A DNA stretch of 64,000 nt, taken from contig NC_073304.1 in assembly GCF_027595985.1 (NCBI RefSeq), forward strand, positions 213,434,500 through 213,498,499, written 5' to 3'. The position numbers and the translations under genes were made by a program. Shown here in pieces: positions 1-63,470 of the stretch; positions within the stretch are counted from its first letter, which is position 1; each line of letters opens with the position of its first letter. Below the pieces are notes generated by a model. That model was not told the DNA's origin. It did not search any database and was given only the letters and a program-made list of their open reading frames with translations. Origin of the DNA: Sorex araneus (lineage: Eukaryota > Chordata > Mammalia > Eulipotyphla > Soricidae).

Positions 1-288
1 TTGATCAAGTGAGTGCCAGTAACGTCTTTATTTGTCCCTGTCATGTGCTAGTGTAGCCTAATGGTATCTGCTCGCTCCAGGAACACAAAGAGCCTCAAAC
101 TATTCGTTCAGGGTCTTGACGAAAAAGTCTGATTATCTCGTAGGTGAGCGGCCACGCGATCTTTTGACATCCTGTGGAAACCAGTCAGTAACAGCTCTAG
201 TCCAGCAGTCGTCTCTAAATCACATTACGTGTACTGCCCATCTGATTTTTGATGCCTTGGCAAATGAGACAGAGTCCCTGATTCTTGA

Positions 289-579
289 TCATCGATGGAG
301 GTCAGAACTCCGGATTCCTTCTCTCACTTGAGTGAAACGTGATACTCCGAACATAGCTCTTTTGATTTCTCTTTGGAATACCCTAATAGCGTTCTCATCC
401 TGTTCTCGTAGGGCCCAGGTCTCTGAGGCATATATTAGTGCAGGAAGAATGGTGGACTCGAAAAGATGTCCCTGGAGCCAGAGGTTCTTTGTCCTCTTAA
501 CAACTTCTTCGACGCTCTTGAAGGCGTTCCACGCTGCTCTCTTCCTTCTGTGCAGTTCTGGCACCAAGTCATTCCTCAT
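289..579 (-). pseudogene. RTE C-terminal domain fragment
   Basis: A 96-codon open stretch with the segment that follows RT in RTE proteins: RRKRAAWNAFKSVEEVVKRT, then LPALIYASETWALREQDENA, then GVSRFTQVREGIRSSDL. Further decayed matches (VTDWFPQDVKRSRGRPPTR and a final RDK-RRYW-like end) continue to position about 10. Confidence 0.85.
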
Positions 580-834
580 GTTGATTTCTCAACCCAGGCA
601 CACACAGGGCAGCCATGCTGCATTCGGAGATGTTTGTTCCATTGAGAGCAAATGGAGCGACAGGGACTAGTTCGATTTTCATGAACATTGTCTTGGTGAG
701 ATTCAGCTGCAGTCCGACCTTTCCACACTCTGGTCGAAGTCGGCCAGCATTTGTGCTGCTTGGCTAATGTTTGGCGTTATGAGAATGATGTCATCAGTGA
801 AGCCTAAGTAATGTAGCTGCCAACCATCTATCTT

Positions 835-1099
835 TTCTTTTTAATTTTTTTCTTGAATAATTTTTTTAATTCTTTTATTGAATCACCATGTGGAAAGTTA
901 CAAAGCTTTCAGGTTTAAGTCTCAGTTATACAATGCTCGAACACCCATCCCTTCACCAGTGCACATATAACACCACCAAGAATCACAGTATACCTCCTCC
1001 CCACAACCCCACCTCCCCAGCCCCCCACCCCGCCTGTGTAACTGGTAAATTTCACTTTACTTTCACTTTACTTTGATTACATTCAATATTTCAACAACG
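835..1099 (-). mobile_element. 5'-truncated L1 3' end inserted in the RTE
   Basis: Reverse-oriented L1 tail: T-rich start, then the complement of 'ggtgattcaataaaag', which also ends the L1 copies at 25.15 and 25.85 kb. It is bounded by a perfect 12-bp target-site duplication, accatctatctt, at 823-834 and 1,100-1,111. It therefore entered after the RTE. Confidence 0.85.
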
Positions 1100-1138
1100 A
1101 CCATCTATCTTCACTCCAATTCTTTCCCATTCCAGTCG

Positions 1139-9549: not shown

Positions 9550-9720
9550 TTTTTTTTCCGTTTTGGATCACACCCAGCGATACTCAGGGGTTATTCCTGG
9601 CTCTGCACTCAGGAATTACTCCTGGCGGTGCTTGGGGGACCATATGGAATGCTGGGGATTGAACCTGGGTCGGTTGCGTGCAAGGCAAACACCCTACCCA
9701 CTGTGCTATCGCTCCTGCCT
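9550..9720 (-). repeat. Shrew SINE with target-site duplication
   Basis: Bounded by the 16-bp repeat cccaaatatctttttc at 9,534-9,549 and 9,721-9,736. Confidence 0.9.
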
Positions 9721-20956: not shown

Positions 20957-21138
20957 TGGGGCTGGAGCGATAGCACAGCGGGTAGGGCGTTTGCCTTGCA
21001 CGCGGCTGACCCGGGTTCTAATCCCAGCATCCCGTATGGTCCCCTGAGCACCGCCAGGGGTAATTCCTGAGTGAAGAGCCAGGAGTAACCCCTGTGCATT
21101 GCCGGGTGTGACCCAAAAACAAAAAAAAAAAAAAAAGA
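20957..21138 (+). repeat. Shrew SINE with target-site duplication
   Basis: Near-consensus. Bounded by the 15-bp repeat aagaaaagctaaaac (20,942-20,956 and 21,139-21,153), hence a fairly recent insertion. Confidence 0.9.
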
Positions 21139-23217: not shown

Positions 23218-23394
23218 TGGGGCTGGAGCGATAGCACAGCGGGGAGGGCGTTTGCCTTGCATGCGGCCGACCCGGGTTCGAATCCCAGCATCCCATATGG
23301 TCCCCTGAGCACCGCCAGGAGTGGTTCCTGAGTGCAGAGCCAGGAGTAACCCCTGTGCATCGCCGGGTGTGACCCAAAAAGCCAAAAAAAAAAA
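23218..23394 (+). repeat. Shrew SINE, near-consensus
   Basis: 'ggggctggagcgatagcaca' to 'gtgtgacccaaaaagcc' plus A-tail; one of the least diverged copies here. Confidence 0.9.
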
Positions 23395-24775: not shown

Positions 24776-25185
24776 TTATCTCTTCATTCTCATCAGTGGA
24801 AAACTTATTATCAAATATTTCCTTGTTAATAGAGCTGTATTCTTGGGGGATAAATTCCAACAAAAATAGTGAGTCGGTTTTGAAACTCCAACAACAATAG
24901 TGAGTTGTGTGTTGAAATTTGGAATGTAATCAAGGTAAAGAGAAAAGGAAGTGAAATTATCACTCACGCACAGGGGGGGGGTTTGGGGGTGAGGGGTGGG
25001 ATGTATACTGGTTTTTTTGTTTTTGTTTTTGTTTTTGTTTTGTTTTTGTTTTTATTGGTAGTGGAATATGGGCACTGGTGAAGGGGTGGGTGTTCGAGCA
25101 TTGTATAACTGAGATATAAGCCTGAGAACTTTGTAACTTTCCACTTGGTGATTCAATAAAATAAATTTAAAAAAAAAAAGAAAAA
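24776..25185 (+). mobile_element. 5'-truncated L1 3' end
   Basis: Perfect 16-bp target-site duplication aagaaaaactgcatag at 24,760-24,775 and 25,186-25,201. The body carries a G-rich run (about 24,970-25,008), a T-rich (GTTTTT)n segment, then the conserved end 'ggtgattcaataaaataaat' and an A-tail. Confidence 0.9.
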
Positions 25186-25470
25186 AAGAAAAACTGCATA
25201 GCGATATCTTTGGGAGAAAGGAAGAAATCCTATCTTAAACTGAAATTGGTTATGAAATGGAATGTAGAAAAGTTACAGGACAGAATGAATGCAAAGGAAC
25301 CTGTAGAAGACTTGAGGATTTGTTAAAAATAGAAACTTTCTATGGTTAAGCCAAATTATTATAAGGATCTTAAAATTAAGCTTTAATGTCTGTAGTATAT
25401 TTGGGTAAAATCAGATTTTAACTTTCCTTTGCCAAAAGGACAAAAATTTTTGTAAAGATTGGTATGCTTT

Positions 25471-28834: not shown

Positions 28835-29220
28835 GGGGGCCACACTAAGCTGCACTTGAACTGTTCCTGTTCTATGCTCAGGACTAGGACTGGAGCGATA
28901 ACACAGTGGGTAGGGCGTTTGCCTTGCACGTGGCTTTGATTCCTCCGTCCCTCTTGGAGAGCCCTGCAAGCCACCATACTGTCCGCATGGCAGAGCCTGG
29001 CAAACTACCTGTGTCGTATTCGATATGCCAAAAACAGTAACAAGTCTCACAATGGAGATGTTACTAGTGCCCGCTCGAGCAAATCGATGAACAATGGGAG
29101 GACAGTGCTACAGTGCTATGCTCAGGACTGACCCCTGGTGGTGCTCAAAAGAACATACTCATTACCAGGGATTGAACCAAGGCTGGTTACCTTGACCCCT
29201 GCACTATTTCTCTCATCCCC
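28835..29220 (-). repeat. Old shrew SINE, split
   Basis: Halves at 28,835-28,885 and 29,116-29,220, interrupted by the RTE-tailed SINE. The 14-bp ctatgctcaggact is repeated at the break. Confidence 0.7.
28886..29115 (+). mobile_element. SINE with RTE-like 3' end (230 bp)
   Basis: The head is the usual tRNA-like SINE ('aggactggagcgataacaca'). The body is different ('cagagcctggcaaactacct', 'gatatgccaaaaacagtaac'). The 3' end, 'aatggagatgttact...cgagcaaatcgatg', resembles the LINE end at positions 1-42. There is no A-tail; it ends in acagtg-type repeats. The 14-bp duplication ctatgctcaggact (28,872-28,885; 29,116-29,129) fixes both ends. Confidence 0.85.
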
Positions 29221-44600: not shown

Positions 44601-47600
44601 CCACGGGCTGTCGGCAAGCGGCCCCCTCCTCCCCGCCGTCCACTCCTGCTCTTCTGCACTGCCGCATCCTGGGTGCCATCCCGAGAGGCGTTGTTCACGT
44701 GGGGTAGAACGAGAGGGTAGAGGCCTTGGCTGGGCAAGGGTCATAGTTATTGTAGGAATTTTGATCCCGAAGGGGCTGGTGTTTGTAAGTCTCTAACCCT
44801 AAATAAATATCCTGGGCAGATGGAATGTTAACTTTGGGTCAGATCATCCGATACCAGAGTGAGGAAGGGAGGGGGCATGTTTGCTGGCAAAAGTTGCAGC
44901 AAAGTCTTTTTTGTTCTTTTTCTTCCTGAGCCCTGCTCAGGGGGCCCCAGGGCCAGGCCTCATGCTACTCCCTCAACTGTTCACTGCCAGGCTGCCTGAG
45001 GCTCGTGTCTGGGGGGCCATTCAGTGCCTAATTTGGGTCCTTCTGAATGCAAGGCACGTGCCCGTGACCCCCCAAACGCCCCTCGTGTCCTGTCTTAGGC
45101 CTCCCCCTGTCTCTCTGCAGCGCCTACTGTAGCCATTTCCCGCTGCACCCTCCAGGGCTGGCTTAGCTGAGTGCCAGATGACCAACTTGGCATTGTTTAG
45201 GGAGCCTGGCGAGCAAAATGAACATACCTGCCGGGTTTCCGTGCAGATGTTGCAGGAGGCCACCCGTGCTTTTATCCGTGGCTGAGGACTGCTTCCTCAC
45301 CTGGTGGCCCATGGCTAAGAAAGCCATATGGGACGCAGTGTCCTGAGTGGGAGGGCCCGGGACGTGACATTCAGGGAGTGATGGGGGCTCTAGAGACCCA
45401 TAGTGCCTCCCCCCGACTATCCTTGGTCCTGCCTGGTTTCCAAGCCTCCCCCTCCCAACCCTCACTCAGAGTCTACAGAAAGAAAGTTGTTTGTGTCACG
45501 GGATGAAACCCACACAAGTTACACATCTTGATATTTCTCCACCTATCAGATAAGGGCAAACCTAGAGTCTGGGCGGTAGTACAGCAGGTAAGGTGCTTGC
45601 ATGGCACATGGCGGGCCCGGGTTCGATCCCAGGCTCCCCATATGGTCCCTGAGCATCTTGGGGTCACTGTCACTGTCACTCCTTGCTCATCGATTTGCTC
45701 AAGCGGGCACCAGTAACATCTCCATTGTGAGACTTGTTACCGTTTTTGGCATATTGAATACGCCACGGGTAGCTGCCAGGCTCTGCCGTGCGGGTGAGAT
45801 ACTCTCAGTAGCTTGCTGGGCTCTCAAGAGGGGCAGAGGAATCGAACCCGGATCATCCAGCATGCAAGGCAAACGCCCTATCTGCTGTGCTATCACTCCA
45901 GCCCCATCTTTGGGGGTAGCCCAAAAAACTAAACAGACAAAACAAAATAAAAAATGAGGGCAGACCTTTTCAGGCAGCGGAGCACACACTGGACATGTGA
46001 CAGGCCCTCAGGACTCGACTGGCACCGCCTGCCCCTGCCCACCAGTACCTTATGTGTAGCCCTGGGGGTCTCTGAGCTCTGCGGGGAGGGCGTTTGCCTT
46101 GCATGTGGCCGACCCAGGTTCGATTCCCAGGACTCCATATGGTCCCCCGAGCACCGCCAGGAGTGATTCCTGAGTGCATGAGCCAGGAGTAACCCCTGTG
46201 CATCGCCGGGTGTGACCCAAATCCCCCCTCCCCCGCAAAAAAAAACAAAAGAAAAAGAAAATAAAGAATAACTAGTTAATAAGGGACTGGAGAGATAGTA
46301 CAGCAGGAAGAGCGCTTGCCTTGCACATGGCCGACCCAGGTTTGACCCCCCCCGCATATGGTCCCCCGAGCATCACTATTCCTGAGCGCAGAGCCAGGAG
46401 TAAGCGCTGAGCATCACCAGATGTGGCCCAGAAGCAAATGAGAGAGACTAGTTATCGTCCTGGTGTTTGTCAAGTGCTCCTGTCTGCGGGGCTGCGGGAG
46501 GGAGGGCAGTCTCGGTCCCTCCCGTTTCTGGGCTGGCCGGCTTTCCTGACCATGGACTCCTGGTGTGTCAGAGCAGGCGGAGAGGGACAGCCCTTGGCTC
46601 TGCCGCTTGCTCGTTAGCTGGTGCTGTGTCCCCAGCAGCAGCCTATTTACCATGCTGACTCTTTACTACTCTGAGTTCAGAGCGTGACTGGCACGTGGCA
46701 CGTGGCACTGGGCCTACCTCTGTAGCGTTGAGTCCTCCACACAGAGCCACCGGCCGCGCCTGGGCTTGACCCTCCTCCCGAGAGGTGCCAGCTGGCCGAC
46801 AGCCTGGACAGGGCTCCCAGGGGCTTTGCCCCAGGCCCCTGGAAGGAGCAGCTTCTGCAGCGCCTCTCTGCCCTGGGGTGGTGGTGTGCGTTTGTCCAAC
46901 GGTCATGTTTGCACACGGACTCCTGCCTGTTGTCCAGTGCGTGCAGCACGAAGGGTTTGCCGTCTCAGTTTAGGATCACTGAGGTTTTTCTCTGATTTGA
47001 GAAGAGAAAGAAGTGGTTGAATAAAAAAGGGCGACAAATGGTTGAGCACATGTAACACCAAGGATGATGTTGTGCAAACAGCACAAGTTACATCATTTAT
47101 CATCCTCACGCTGGCCCTTTAAGCGGGTCTTATCTCCTCTTTCCAGATGAGAGAATTGGCTTGGAAAGGCCACTCGCCTTTACCTCCTCCCTAGCCATGC
47201 CACGTGTCCGTGGTGACACTCTGCGGCTCCTTTAGGTCAAGACCATCGGGATATTACCGACAGGACTTGGCTGGGCTCGGAGTTGTCCGTGCATTGTATG
47301 GCGTGGGCCTGATGGTTCCCGGCCTCCTCTGGGTGAAGCACCACCCTGGGGGCAGCTGGACTTACCCTCCGAGCCTTGTCGCTTCCCAGCCTGAGGCAGG
47401 CGGGCAGAACTCCCCATCCCTCTAGTTCCTCAGCAAACTCTTGTTGAATGCTTTGACCACGGCCTGCAAGAACTGGAGCCCTAGAAGAAGAGGCTGAGGG
47501 AGCGTCTGTGGGAAGCGCAGGCCAGGGGCTGGCAGGTGGAGGGTCAGGAAAGCTCGTGGGCCAGTGCAGGCTGCACGGCAGACTCGCAGGGAGCCTGAGA

Positions 47601-53164: not shown

Positions 53165-56100
53165 CTGCAGGGGGGAGGAGGCCGCTTCATGCCATGCCAT
53201 CCTGGGCTGGGGCCCTCCCTCCTGGGTCCATGCTGAGATCTGCACGGGGCGGGGGCAGCGCTGTCCCCAGAGTCCAGAGCGGTACCTGCAGCAGCAGCTG
53301 CGGGGCAGGGTAGGCATCCACCACGGCACTGGCCACTTCCAGGCTGACGCGGTTCAGCTGCTGGATCTGCCTCCGCCACACCAGGGCAAGTCCCCCGCCG
53401 GCCTGGTCCACCTTAGCGCCCCCGGCCCAGTCACTCTCCAGGCAGAAGGAGAAACTGGTCTGGTCTCGGAGCCTCCTGCCAAGGGCAAAGTGAAGTGCAG
53501 CGGGCAGTGCCCAGCTGGGCCCGGCCCCACACCGGAAGGGACAAGGAACCGGAAGTCGAGCCGTGGGTCTGCCACCACGCTAGGAGCGGGGACAGATCGG
53601 TCCCTGCAGGTCTCGGGCGGAAAATGAAGTGCAGGACTCGGCTGTCTCTGAGGCCCCTTTTTAAGAACCGGGGCTCGGGGCTGGAGAGACAGTCCAGCGG
53701 GGAGGCTGCTTGCCTTGCGCCAGGCTGACCCAGGTTCAACTCCCAGCACCACCTGTGGTTGGTTCCCTGAGTACTGCCAGTGTGGTCCCCAAAATGAAAA
53801 GAAAAAGTGGGACTCTTGGAGCACAGTAGGCTAAAAGTAGCTTGTTCTGTGAGGGCTCATCTCATTGTGACCTGACCTGTAATAAATCCCAGCGGACGTG
53901 GGGGCTGGAGTGATAGCACAGCGGGTAGGGCGTTTGCCTTGCACGCAGCCGACCCAGGTTCGAATCCCAGCATCCCATATGGTCCCCCAGCACCGCCAGG
54001 AGTAATTCCTGAGTGCAAAGCCAGGAGTAACCCCTGTGTACTGCTGGGTGTGACCCCAAAAAAGCAAATAAATTAATTAATTAATAAAATAAATCCCAGC
54101 GGACGTGGCCTGCTGTGGGCCCAGCCGCAAACTGAATAACGAGCTGAAGCAGCACGTTCCAAAGGGAAGAGAACGCAGAGGCACTGCACCGGGTGCCCTG
54201 CACACAGAAGGCCCCGGGTTGGACCCCCAACCCCCACACAGCCCCTGAAACACTGCTGGGCGTTGGTCCTAGTGGCCCCCAGTGCCCTGGGCCGAGTGCT
54301 GGTGCACGACTGGCCTGAGCACTGGACCATCAGAGGCCCTAGGGGGACTGGGGTGGAGGGCTCTTCCCGAGCGCCCAGGTGAGGTCTGGCCGCAGAGCTG
54401 ACGGGGAAACGGACTCCTGGGGTCAGGGCTTCCCCACAGGAAAGGGTGTGCGTGCCCAGGACACTCACTTGAAGGGCGCCTCGGCCACGGCCTTGGTGAA
54501 GGCACACGCCAGCTCCGCCAGCTCCTTCCAGCTGTGCACAGTGAGCGCCTGCGCCGAGGTGTGCAGCTGCAGCTCCACCAACACCTGGGAAGAGCCCGGG
54601 GGAGAGCAGGGCGGGGCTGGGCGTGTGCCAGAGGCTCACCACACCTGCACCCTGGCCCCTTAGGAGTGACCCGGCACACTGTGACCCCCCCACACACGGG
54701 CCCCGGCCACTCTTACCTCCTCCACATCCAACCTGGACACCCCCGGCCCGACGCCGGCCTCTGCTTGTCTCTGCGCTGGCTTCTCCTTGGCCGGGCCTCT
54801 GGCCGCCCCTGCACCCTGCTTCCTTCTCCGGGGAGGGTTCGGAGCACTGGAACAGCGGAGGAAACCAGAGAACAGGAGAGCAGGCCTGAGCGGAGGCAGA
54901 AGAGATGCCGGGACCAGGACCAACCCCCCCACACAGGGCGTGTCTGGGACCCAGTCTGAGATGATGAATCACCCCCATAGGCCACACACCGGATGCAAAG
55001 TGTTGTGGTTACTGGGCCACACACAGCAGTGCTCAGGGATCACTCCCGGCAGGACTCAGGGGAATCAAACCCGGGTGGGCTGCGTCAAGGCAAGTCCCTC
55101 ACCCCTTGTACCATCTCTCTGGTCCCATAAAGTCTTGAGGGCAAATGCAAACCTCGGGGCCTTCTGGTCCACAATCAGCAGCGACAGAGCCTTTCCCGCA
55201 GTTTTGGTCATGATGTCTGTGATGAAGCTGCACAGAGCCTCCTTCCCCTTCTCGGCACCGCCCAGACTGGCCTGTATGAAGGGGCAGAAGCCACATGAAT
55301 GCCTGTTCCCTTGGGGGAGGGAGCTCTGCCCCCCCCCCCCCCCCCCCGCCCCACACCGACCCCTGTATGCCCCGCCCACCTGCTTGAACCCACCCATGTA
55401 AGCCCCGCCCACCTGCTTGAAGCTGCAGATCAGGGGTACGAGTGCCTCCGCCAGCAGCAGCACCAGGACCACGGGCTCCTCCACCCAATCCTCCTTTCCA
55501 TCCTGTCAAAGGGCGGGAAGCCAGTGGAGAGTGTGGGTCAGAGCACCCGGGAGAGACCCAGGCTTCTGGGTGAAGGACCTCACCCATGGGCCTCACCCCA
55601 GGCGGGCCACCCACCAGCACCTCAGGACTGTGCAGTCTCTGGGGGAGCAGGACTTTAGCAGGGAACTTTCCAGCTGAGTCCCCACAATACGGCAAAGCGG
55701 AGGCAGGGCAGGACTCTGGGTTTTGGTGTTTTTGTTTGTTTGCTTTTTGGGTCACACCTTGCAATGTTTAGGCATTCCTTCTGGCTCTGCACTCAGAAAT
55801 CACCCTGGCAGTGCTCAGGGGACCATATGGGATGCCGAAGATCCAAGCCGGGTTGGCTTGCCTGCATGCAAGGCAAACGCCCTACCTGCTGTACTATCGC
55901 TCTGGCTCGGAACTCAGGATTCTACTTCCTGCTTTCTATGGCTTGGCCATAGTCCTTGGCAAGACTCTGCCTCTCTGAGCCTTCACTGCAGTGTGGGATG
56001 TGAGTTCATTCCCAGGGTGGGGGTGGAGGGGTGGGGCAAATGCTACTGAAACACCAGAGAGATCATGAGGGGCCTTGATTGGTGAGGCTGCTCTGCAAAC

Positions 56101-59080: not shown

Positions 59081-62000
59081 GTAACGAGACGCCGGGGCCG
59101 TGGTGGGGCGAGGGGTGGAGGCGGAGCGGAGCCCCTGCCGGGCCCCGGGGACATGGTGACTGTGTCCCCGGAGCGTCCTGGGCGCTGGGGGCTGGGGGAG
59201 GGGCGCGGTCACGTGGCGGCGCCGCGCGCCGGGCCGCGGGCGTGGCTCCGGAGCACGTGTCCGGGACGCGGTGCTCTGAGTCCCCCAGCGGGTGGGCCGC
59301 GGGCCCTGCCGCCGGCGCGGAAAATAACCCCCCTGGTTCGGCAGACTGAGCTCGGCCTCTGTGCCCATCGCCGTGCCAGGTGGCAGTGAGCCCAGCAGAG
59401 GAGATTAAAAACAAAAAAAAAGACAAAATACATGTGGCTGGAGCGATAGCACAGCGGGTAGGGCGTTTGCCTTGCAGGCGGCCGACCCGGGTTCGATTCC
59501 CAGCATCCCATATGGTCCCCCAGCACCGCCAGGGGTAACCCCTGTGCATCGCCGAGTGTGACCCGAAAAGCAGGAAAAAAAAAAAAAAACACGGTCCCTA
59601 CCTGCTGGATGGCCCGGTCCCGCGCATGAGCCAGCGAACCGCGCGTGAATAAAAACCCAGTAATCGGTCCAAGCGTGTGCCTCTTTGTAGGACTGGTGGT
59701 CGGGCAGGCTTGAGGCCGTGGACATCCCAGTTCAGATCCGAAGGATGTGCCTGTAGGACAGTGAGGGGCCGGGGGCCGGCGGAGGGACTTGACCCAGTTA
59801 TATGACTTGGAGTCGCGAGGGCTCCTCTGAATTTCAGGCGTAGCAATGGAAAGGAGGAAAAAGGAGATGGGAAGACTGGACAGGGCCGGCGAGATGGCTC
59901 TTTAGCCACGTAGTGTCTGCGAACCTGCATCCAGTGCATGGGTTCCAGAGCTGTTTCGGAGATAGAATCCACAGCGCTTGCTGGTGAACGGAGTATGAGA
60001 GATGAGAAAGGGACAGGGTCAGTGCCCATAGTGGCCACTGTCCTTGGAGGACAGGAAGTGTGGTAAAGGCAAAGGTGTGAAGAAGAGGATGTAGAGAAAA
60101 GCCCAGCTCCTGAGCTTAGTAAGTGAGAAAAATAAAGAGGAAGTAATCAAGGTAGGTAGTTCTGTTGCTATGTGGCTGTAGTTACTGTTTTGGCAAGGGT
60201 TAGGGGCACATACCAGGCAGTGCTCAGGGCCACACCAGGTAAACTCTCTGGAGACCTTGATCTTGGTCTCTGTTTTCAGCCAGGGTTCCTAGGTACCTGG
60301 ATGGTAATTTTTTTTAAAAATTATAATTTAAAAAAATGATAATTTTGTTTCAAAAATAAAAGTCCGAGTTACAAAGATGCTCAGGTTCAGAGTTAGAAAA
60401 TAGAAACGTGAGGGCTGGAGCGATAGCACAGTGGGTAGGACATTTGCCTTGCACGTGGATGACCCGGGTTTAATTTCCAGCATCCTATATGGTCCCCTGA
60501 GCACCACCAGGAGTAATTCCTGAGTGAAGAGTCAGGAGTAACCCCTGTGCTTTGCCGGGTGTGACCCAAAAGAAAAAGAAAAAAAAAATAGAAAAGTTTA
60601 TGAGAAAGTAGAAACTCCCCAGGTGGGGAGGAACTTGGTATAGGACTAAATTAAATATAGCTCACTTTGTGGAGTTTTTAATAGGAAAACTGGGTCTTTA
60701 TGTTATTTGTCAAATGACAGGAAGGTTAGAGAGAATGCAAGGATTTTGTAGAGTGGTCTGGCCAGTGTAGAACCTTTTAGATTATTTTTTTTTAATGAGT
60801 GAACCACAACCTTTTAGATTATTGATTTGGCCATTTGCCCAAGTATTCTCAATTTTCTCTTAGTTTCCTGTGATCTTAAGGTCCGGGGCAGAATCTGTGA
60901 TCTTGGGAAATTGTTAACTCACCATTCTCAGAAAGCCCAGGAATTTGCAGGAGTGTTTGAAATGTGGGATGGATGCAGCTCAGATGGAGCTGCTGGCAGC
61001 AGCTGGCAAGGGCAACTGAGGCTTCCTCTGTCACATCTGGTGCTGACATCCAACCACTGCCCCGCGGCTATAGCCACAGGCGAGGCAAGTGCCCAGGCCC
61101 TCTTGCTAGGTTTCTGAGCCCTTATCTCTGGTCCTGACAGGCTTGTCTCAGTTCTCAGGAAACCCTCGAGGCCCGGAGACCCCCCTGAGAGGCCTCAGGG
61201 AGCCAGGGCTGATGGAGACACAGAAGCCAGAGCTGCTGGCCTTGCCGCTCCGCGAGGGGCTGCAGTCTGGGGCCGTCTGGGCTTGTGGAATGAGGGGAGA
61301 AAGCTCAGCTGATGGAGGCCTGGGGTTGCTGTTGGTGGGGCTCTGCCCAGGAACCTGTGGGGAGGGGTCCGTTCTCAGGCGGCCCAGCGCCTGTGGGACA
61401 TCAAGCTGCCCTTTGGTTCCCAAGCGGCTGGTGTGCAGCCAGCGGGTGGAGAGTGAGGCCTCGGTCTTCTAGCCCCGAGGGCCTGGCGGTGAGTGAGGCT
61501 CAGACAGGTGTTTCCGTGGTGGCTCTTGGTGTGCCTTTCCGCAGTGTTTCTCCTCAACGGGACAGAATGTGCCAGGATCCGCGGGCGGCAGCGTCTTTTA
61601 TCCCCGTTAATATTTCACTGTCCCTGCGCTCGGGCTGTTTGTATCTGGAGCACAGAGTGGCCGGCCAGGAGAGGCGCTCAAGGACCTCCAGACACTCCTC
61701 GAAAGCTAACGGCCAAGTGAGGTTCCTGCTCACGTTTCCGCCCAGGCTCCGAGCTACCCTGAACTTTTCTCTCCTCTTCCCTGCAGCTTCCGCCCTGCTG
61801 AGCATCCCCCAGCCTGCTGCTCTTACCGTCAGACACGCGTCCAAGAAGACGGGTGGCAGCTCCAAAAACCTGGGTGGAAAGTCCCGGGGCAAACACTATG
61901 GCGTCAGGAAGTTGGACGGTGAGCCTGCGCTGTGGTGTCCGTGTCCCAGCCGCCCCCACTCTGCTGCCTTAGTGCTGGCCCTTGCTCTCTGCTCAGCCCC

Positions 62001-63292: not shown

Positions 63293-63470
63293 GGGCTGGA
63301 GCGATAGCATAAGGGGTAGGGCGTTTGCCTTGCATGCGGCTGACCCGGGTTCGAATCCCAGCATCCCATATGGTCCCCTGAGCACTGCCAGGAGTAATTC
63401 CTGAGTGCAGAGCCAGGAGTAACCCCTGTGCATCGCCAGGTGTGACCCAAAAAGCAAAAAAAAAAAAAAA
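63293..63470 (+). repeat. Young shrew SINE with target-site duplication
   Basis: Near-consensus; flanked by aaatgaacatgctttg at 63,277-63,292 and 63,471-63,486. Confidence 0.92.

Follow-up and report, generated by a model that had tools for sequence, protein, structure and literature searches.

Two short interspersed elements (SINEs) in a 64,000-nucleotide stretch of the Sorex araneus genome (NC_073304.1, positions 213,434,500 to 213,498,499; the whole analysed stretch is referred to here as the window) belong, with a probability of about 0.92, to a family of bipartite SINEs that have a tRNA-like head and are parasites of an RTE LINE resembling RTE1_Sar. In the family consensus, columns 1-63 form the head and columns 64-174 correspond to the RTE 5′ UTR, followed by the six bases gtctca and, from column 181 onward, by the RTE 3′ end, which comprises the last ~18 codons of the RTE ORF, a short 3′ UTR and the terminal repeat. 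The two copies, s1 and s2, and the decayed RTE copy of the window are laid out as follows.

28886..29115, plus strand: RTE-tailed SINE copy s1, whole element, with an exact 14-bp target-site duplication
28886..28943, plus strand: tRNA-like head of s1 with putative pol III A and B boxes, common to the A-tailed SOR SINE and internally shortened in s1
28942..29043, plus strand: body of s1, from the RTE 5′ UTR, matched by the 5′ UTR of RTE copy L113 (E 1e-21)
29051..29115, plus strand: 3′ segment of s1, which by profile and consensus matches comes from the RTE 3′ end and takes in the last ~18 codons, the 3′ UTR and the tail repeat
45665..45905, minus strand: RTE-tailed SINE copy s2, whole element, of tail subtype acagtgac, with an imprecise target-site duplication
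45734..45832, minus strand: body of s2, from the RTE 5′ UTR (RTE copies L110, L113 and L117; best E 1.35e-26)
45665..45726, minus strand: 3′ segment of s2, from the RTE 3′ end, by C-terminus profile and 32-column DNA match
1..834, minus strand: 3′ part of the decayed RTE copy, which continues past the window and ends in L032
1102..2469, minus strand: remainder of this RTE copy, set apart from the 3′ part by a repeat inserted at about 835-1101

A preliminary description, made from the window alone, had recognised in s1 and s2 a shared head joined to a distinct body, and both elements were found where it had placed them, apart from the s2 end at 45656, which takes in flanking DNA, the element itself ending at about 45665. 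Aligned over 246 columns, the two copies share 79.7% identity. No more than the first 81 bases of either have a match at other places in the window, the remainder pairing only s1 with s2. An Rfam search of both copies returned no match. Both end in acagtg-type letters (s1 acagtgctacagtg, s2 gacagtgacagtg) instead of poly-A, as had been described. The claim that precise target-site duplications fix both elements holds for s1, where the 14-bp duplication ctatgctcaggact is exact (28872-28885 and 29116-29129), and fails for s2, where acccccaaagatg faces accccaagatg with two single-base length differences. The gapless similarity of the 3′ ends to the RTE at window positions 32-1 (minus strand) was reproduced at the reported 22/32 (s1) and 24/32 (s2) identities, most mismatches being transitions (9/10 and 7/8, respectively, as judged by eye on the alignment).

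The head consensus is identical at 61 of 63 columns to that of the SOR SINE, which is described for shrews in the parts consulted of two papers (PMC11240701; PMC7279448); SOR has a different body and an A-rich tail, neither of which is present in the RTE-tailed SINE. The RTE-derived part starts directly after the B box of the head, which appears to be tRNA-like and of pol III promoter type, the A and B boxes having been placed by eye against a consensus. ARAGORN called neither the s1 nor the s2 head a tRNA. Its six tRNA-Ala calls in the window coincide with heads of SINEs that we take to be of SOR type and, owing to this overlap, are probably not tRNA genes.

9644-9716, 20963-21035, 23224-23296, 53906-53978, 59439-59511 and 63297-63369: ARAGORN tRNA-Ala calls on SOR-type SINE heads

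Copies of the family were sought across the 2.41-Gb genome. With s1 as the query, the best 40 of 4171 candidates were scored and 30 fetched. Inspected by eye, all 30 have tails of the acagtg type, altered by point changes, and no A-rich end is seen among them. Since the s1 query contained tail letters, the search was redone with the body only, and the RTE 3′ segment was present in all 40 copies scored, which were the best of 2270 candidates and included the window copy. Both samples consist of the best candidates only (40/4171 and 40/2270), so old copies are under-sampled. In addition, a local census covered 252,625 bp of the window and flanks (65 records) and gave 18 body-bearing hits that reach the 3′ end, hits cut by a record end or stopping short being left out; two of the records (L039 and L040) represent one duplicated segment, which leaves 17 distinct copies. 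Extrapolation from 2 copies per 64 kb or 17 per 252.6 kb, both small and partly selected samples, gives a rough copy number of ~75,000-160,000 per genome.

Target-site duplications of at least 7 bp were found in 27 of 52 usable copies against 0.6 expected from swapped flanks, with at most 3 in any of 200 swapped sets, although some of those counted are of low complexity (L009, L024). The 52 remained from 65 SINE copies after 13 with an incomplete 5′ or 3′ end or a short flank had been dropped, and in 25 of them the exact-match test detected no duplication of this length. In many copies the duplication directly abuts the RTE-type repeat, which argues against the improbable reading that the SINE is mobilised by L1, its RTE-like end merely captured and its A-tails since decayed away. 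That reading draws on the existence of SOR, an A-tailed family with the same head, which is presumably moved by L1. However, poly-A was seen in 0 of the 39 body-selected copies with a visible flank (all but L085), and A-rich ends in 0 of the 17 census copies, in line with what had been claimed for s1 and s2. Decay would also have to have spared SOR, which at a like divergence from consensus (12.5% over the first ~160 bases in 41 copies, against a mean of 11.4% in 14 copies of the RTE-tailed SINE) is still A-rich in 55 of 68 census copies with its 3′-end motif, a count in which A-rich copies are favoured as the motif itself ends in aa. The difference between A-rich and RTE-type tails fits the two routes of SINE mobilisation put forward in the preliminary description. 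At ~11% from its consensus, the RTE-tailed SINE may be inactive now.

The body of the SINE is identical to the RTE 5′ UTR at 106 of 111 columns of the consensus sequences. Ten RTE N-terminal copies were fetched among 150 scored. Six of them have the stretch at a constant position, 125-235 bp upstream of the ORF; the remaining four are truncated, their RTE homology starting where the stretch ends (L115) or further downstream. The stretch is also present in L064 and L066. With a body from the 5′ UTR and a tail from the 3′ end of an RTE, the SINE is bipartite; the preliminary description missed this origin of the body as well as the nematode-shared nature of the RTE.

The same two RTE pieces also occur joined together without a head. 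At least five such copies that span the junction, with a similar junction in each, were encountered in the DNA fetched.

L011:1172-1391: headless element, RTE 5′ UTR joined to RTE 3′ end
L016:2849-3101: headless element, RTE 5′ UTR joined to RTE 3′ end
L027:1263-1461: headless element, RTE 5′ UTR joined to RTE 3′ end
L051:424-643: headless element, RTE 5′ UTR joined to RTE 3′ end
L112:3007-3137: headless element, RTE 5′ UTR joined to RTE 3′ end

These headless elements likely constitute a third non-autonomous family; they look older than the SINE, and the six bases gtctca between the two RTE pieces recur in them. Their existence lends some substance to the idea that internally deleted RTEs merely adjoin a tRNA-like head by chance, yet the position of the head-body junction is constant from one copy to the next and the target-site duplications enclose head, body and tail as one, which makes such chance adjacency highly improbable.

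Regarding the 3′ segment, the 32-column DNA match seen within the window is modest, the scores of s1 and s2 each having been reached once in 2000 dinucleotide shuffles, and the RTE copy of the window has decayed and is truncated where the window begins. As this match is too weak to rely on, a protein profile and a genome consensus were used. The profile was built from 20 RTE C-termini (19 named nematode proteins and one unnamed protein, the window's own RTE not being used) and run over six frames of the window (1284 pieces), where it retrieved the RTE with an E-value of 7.8e-14, the s2 tail with 1.6e-5 and the s1 tail with 0.003, while the next full-sequence E-value was 0.51. The 3′ segment of the SINE thus codes for the C-terminus of the RTE protein, its 15-residue reading aligning with EWRRYWRPLEQIDDQRDDR, the end of a Nippostrongylus RTE. 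At the consensus level, SINE and genomic RTE 3′ end are identical at 56 of 63 columns, and the likeness first noticed on two copies was borne out with a score of 86 for the RTE consensus of 30 genomic copies against the SINE, compared to a maximum of 29 in 5000 shuffles. All 30 fetched RTE copies (150 scored) stop at the equivalent point, within a repeat related to that of the SINE, ending in ...aatggagacgttactggcgcccgctcgagcaaatcgaagatcaacgggac-tacaagtgatacaagtga or variants of it, and beyond this point their sequences diverge. Chance or convergence as the source of the tail's likeness to RTE, to which the modest match within the window might have left room, is refuted by the profile reading against nematode proteins, the score of 86 versus 29 and the 56/63 consensus match.

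The tails of the SINE fall into two forms, acagtgct and acagtgac/acagtgat. The tail units nevertheless differ between SINE (acagtgct or acagtgat) and RTE (acaagtgat), as do 7 of the 63 columns of the 3′ end, so that from its sequence the 3′ end does not pin down which RTE subfamily may have moved the SINE.

As to the partner LINE, the C-terminal reading of the window RTE has 192 protein matches, and every named protein among the 120 listed belongs to a strongylid nematode, the genera being Nippostrongylus (best, 68%), Necator, Heligmosomoides, Angiostrongylus, Haemonchus, Parelaphostrongylus and Ancylostoma, six of the listed proteins being unnamed. Pfam detected no domain in the N-terminal piece of the RTE; in three homologous proteins, one of them unnamed, it detected RVT_1. 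The window copy is ~85% identical to other genomic copies, and all 150 genomic copies scored, the best of 132,973 first-look candidates, show 71-78% amino acid identity. An earlier study, in whose main text the word SINE is absent, reports that RTE1_Sar moved by horizontal transfer between nematodes and the common shrew, is abundant in the shrew and is nearest to the RTEs of Heligmosomoides and Nippostrongylus (Dunemann and Wasmuth, 2019; PMC6542046). The strongylid relatives of the window RTE fit this nematode-exchanged element and, based on these relatives and on abundance, the partner LINE is very probably RTE1_Sar.

Several further observations concern the RTE copies and their surroundings. 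The repeat at window positions 835-1101 that splits the window copy is a different one, parts of which are found again near 2603-2703 and 24910-25193. One RTE copy together with its flanks is found twice, in opposite orientation and ~78 kb apart (L039 and L040; G000 C1:446.70 Mb and 446.78 Mb), which could reflect an inverted duplication or else a feature of the assembly. Two RTE copies close to the end of contig C6 have identical scores (G000 C6:168947237-168947833 and C6:169011627-169012223), perhaps due to another segmental duplication. Two protein searches with SINE-derived queries matched only P0121 and P0122, short proteins of public contigs that are seemingly read through the SINE, apparently via two head-to-head copies in the case of P0121. 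Another short protein of a public contig, P0024, matches the window RTE at 78%. All three are probably shrew DNA in other samples.

The SINE was most likely copied by the enzyme of the RTE, as its anatomy suggests. The head would drive transcription of the SINE by pol III, the 3′ segment of the RNA would be recognised by the RTE reverse transcriptase, and target-primed reverse transcription would begin at the terminal repeat, making poly-A unneeded. The family itself may have been born by fusion of a SOR-type head with a headless element made of RTE 5′ UTR and 3′ end, after entry of the RTE into the shrew lineage. The headless elements look like an intermediate, and the order from RTE to headless element to SINE is plausible: the SINE shares the variants ccaaaaac and gtctca with some headless elements, while RTE 5′ UTR copies mostly have ccaacaac and ggcctca, a by-eye reading of a handful of copies.

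A more tentative idea, and one we consider rather doubtful, is that the SINE preserves, like a fossil, the state of the RTE on its arrival from nematodes. Soon after its entry the RTE would have gained first a headless parasite and then, by joining of the latter to a resident tRNA SINE just behind its promoter, a second SINE system; the headless element itself might even have been part of the transfer. The idea is prompted by the SINE 3′ end IDEQRDDS, which is closer to IDDQRDDR of Nippostrongylus and Haemonchus than to the usual shrew RTE IEDQRDYK, and by the small variants that the SINE body has in common with headless elements. Against it, other nematodes differ (RDYR in Angiostrongylus, FEDQRESR in Necator), and the window copy, as well as four of the 30 fetched RTE copies when read by eye, still has RDDK or QDDK.

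In the open-licence literature, with Repbase, Dfam and most subscription papers outside its scope, no description of this SINE was found. In the consulted part of one survey, the word shrew is absent and the mammalian section of its table of 58 SINE/LINE pairs holds no shrew pair (PMC3747384). The family belongs to a known class, and an unpublished database entry for it may exist. Collections of viral contigs, genome contigs, phages and plasmids contained no further copies of the SINE. Seven stretches of the viral contigs matched RTE peptide patterns, none of which was confirmed, and a Bov-tA pattern hit one contig with a short ruminant-like piece, too short to use.

If the main reading is true, an RTE shared between a vertebrate and parasitic nematodes has, after AviRTE in birds, once more gained a SINE of its own, this time in a mammal. 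One genome would then hold two SINE families with near-identical heads and either A-rich or RTE-type tails, a natural comparison that could show the effect of the tail itself on copy number, target choice and spread. With RTE, headless element and SINE all present, the steps of SINE birth would moreover be traceable.

Taken together, the putative pol III head, the RTE-homologous 3′ end, the RTE 5′ segment, the short tandem-repeat tail and the target-site duplications place the shrew family in the class of bipartite SINEs. SINEs mobilised by Bov-B consist of a tRNA or 5S head, an RTE-derived part and a short-repeat tail without poly-A. Gogolevsky and colleagues are said to have described them in 2008 as bipartite, with Bov-tA, AfroSINE, Ped-1/2 and Mar-1 as examples. 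The shrew SINE is like them in its tRNA-type head, RTE-derived part and short-repeat tail; its partner, however, has named relatives that among the matches listed are all strongylid, no named Bov-B host appearing among the 120 listed of 192, and judged by these relatives it may not be Bov-B. A closer parallel in construction is offered by the AviRTE SINEs of birds, among them ManaSINE1 and GymnSINE, which have a bipartite tail according to the sections consulted (Suh et al., 2016; PMC4844689). As in the shrew, a promoter-bearing head is followed there by a tail in which a piece of the RTE 5′ UTR is combined with the RTE 3′ end, and the partner RTE was horizontally exchanged with nematodes. The shrew family differs from them in its host and its RTE, and in sharing its head, almost without change, with an A-tailed SINE that resides in the same genome.
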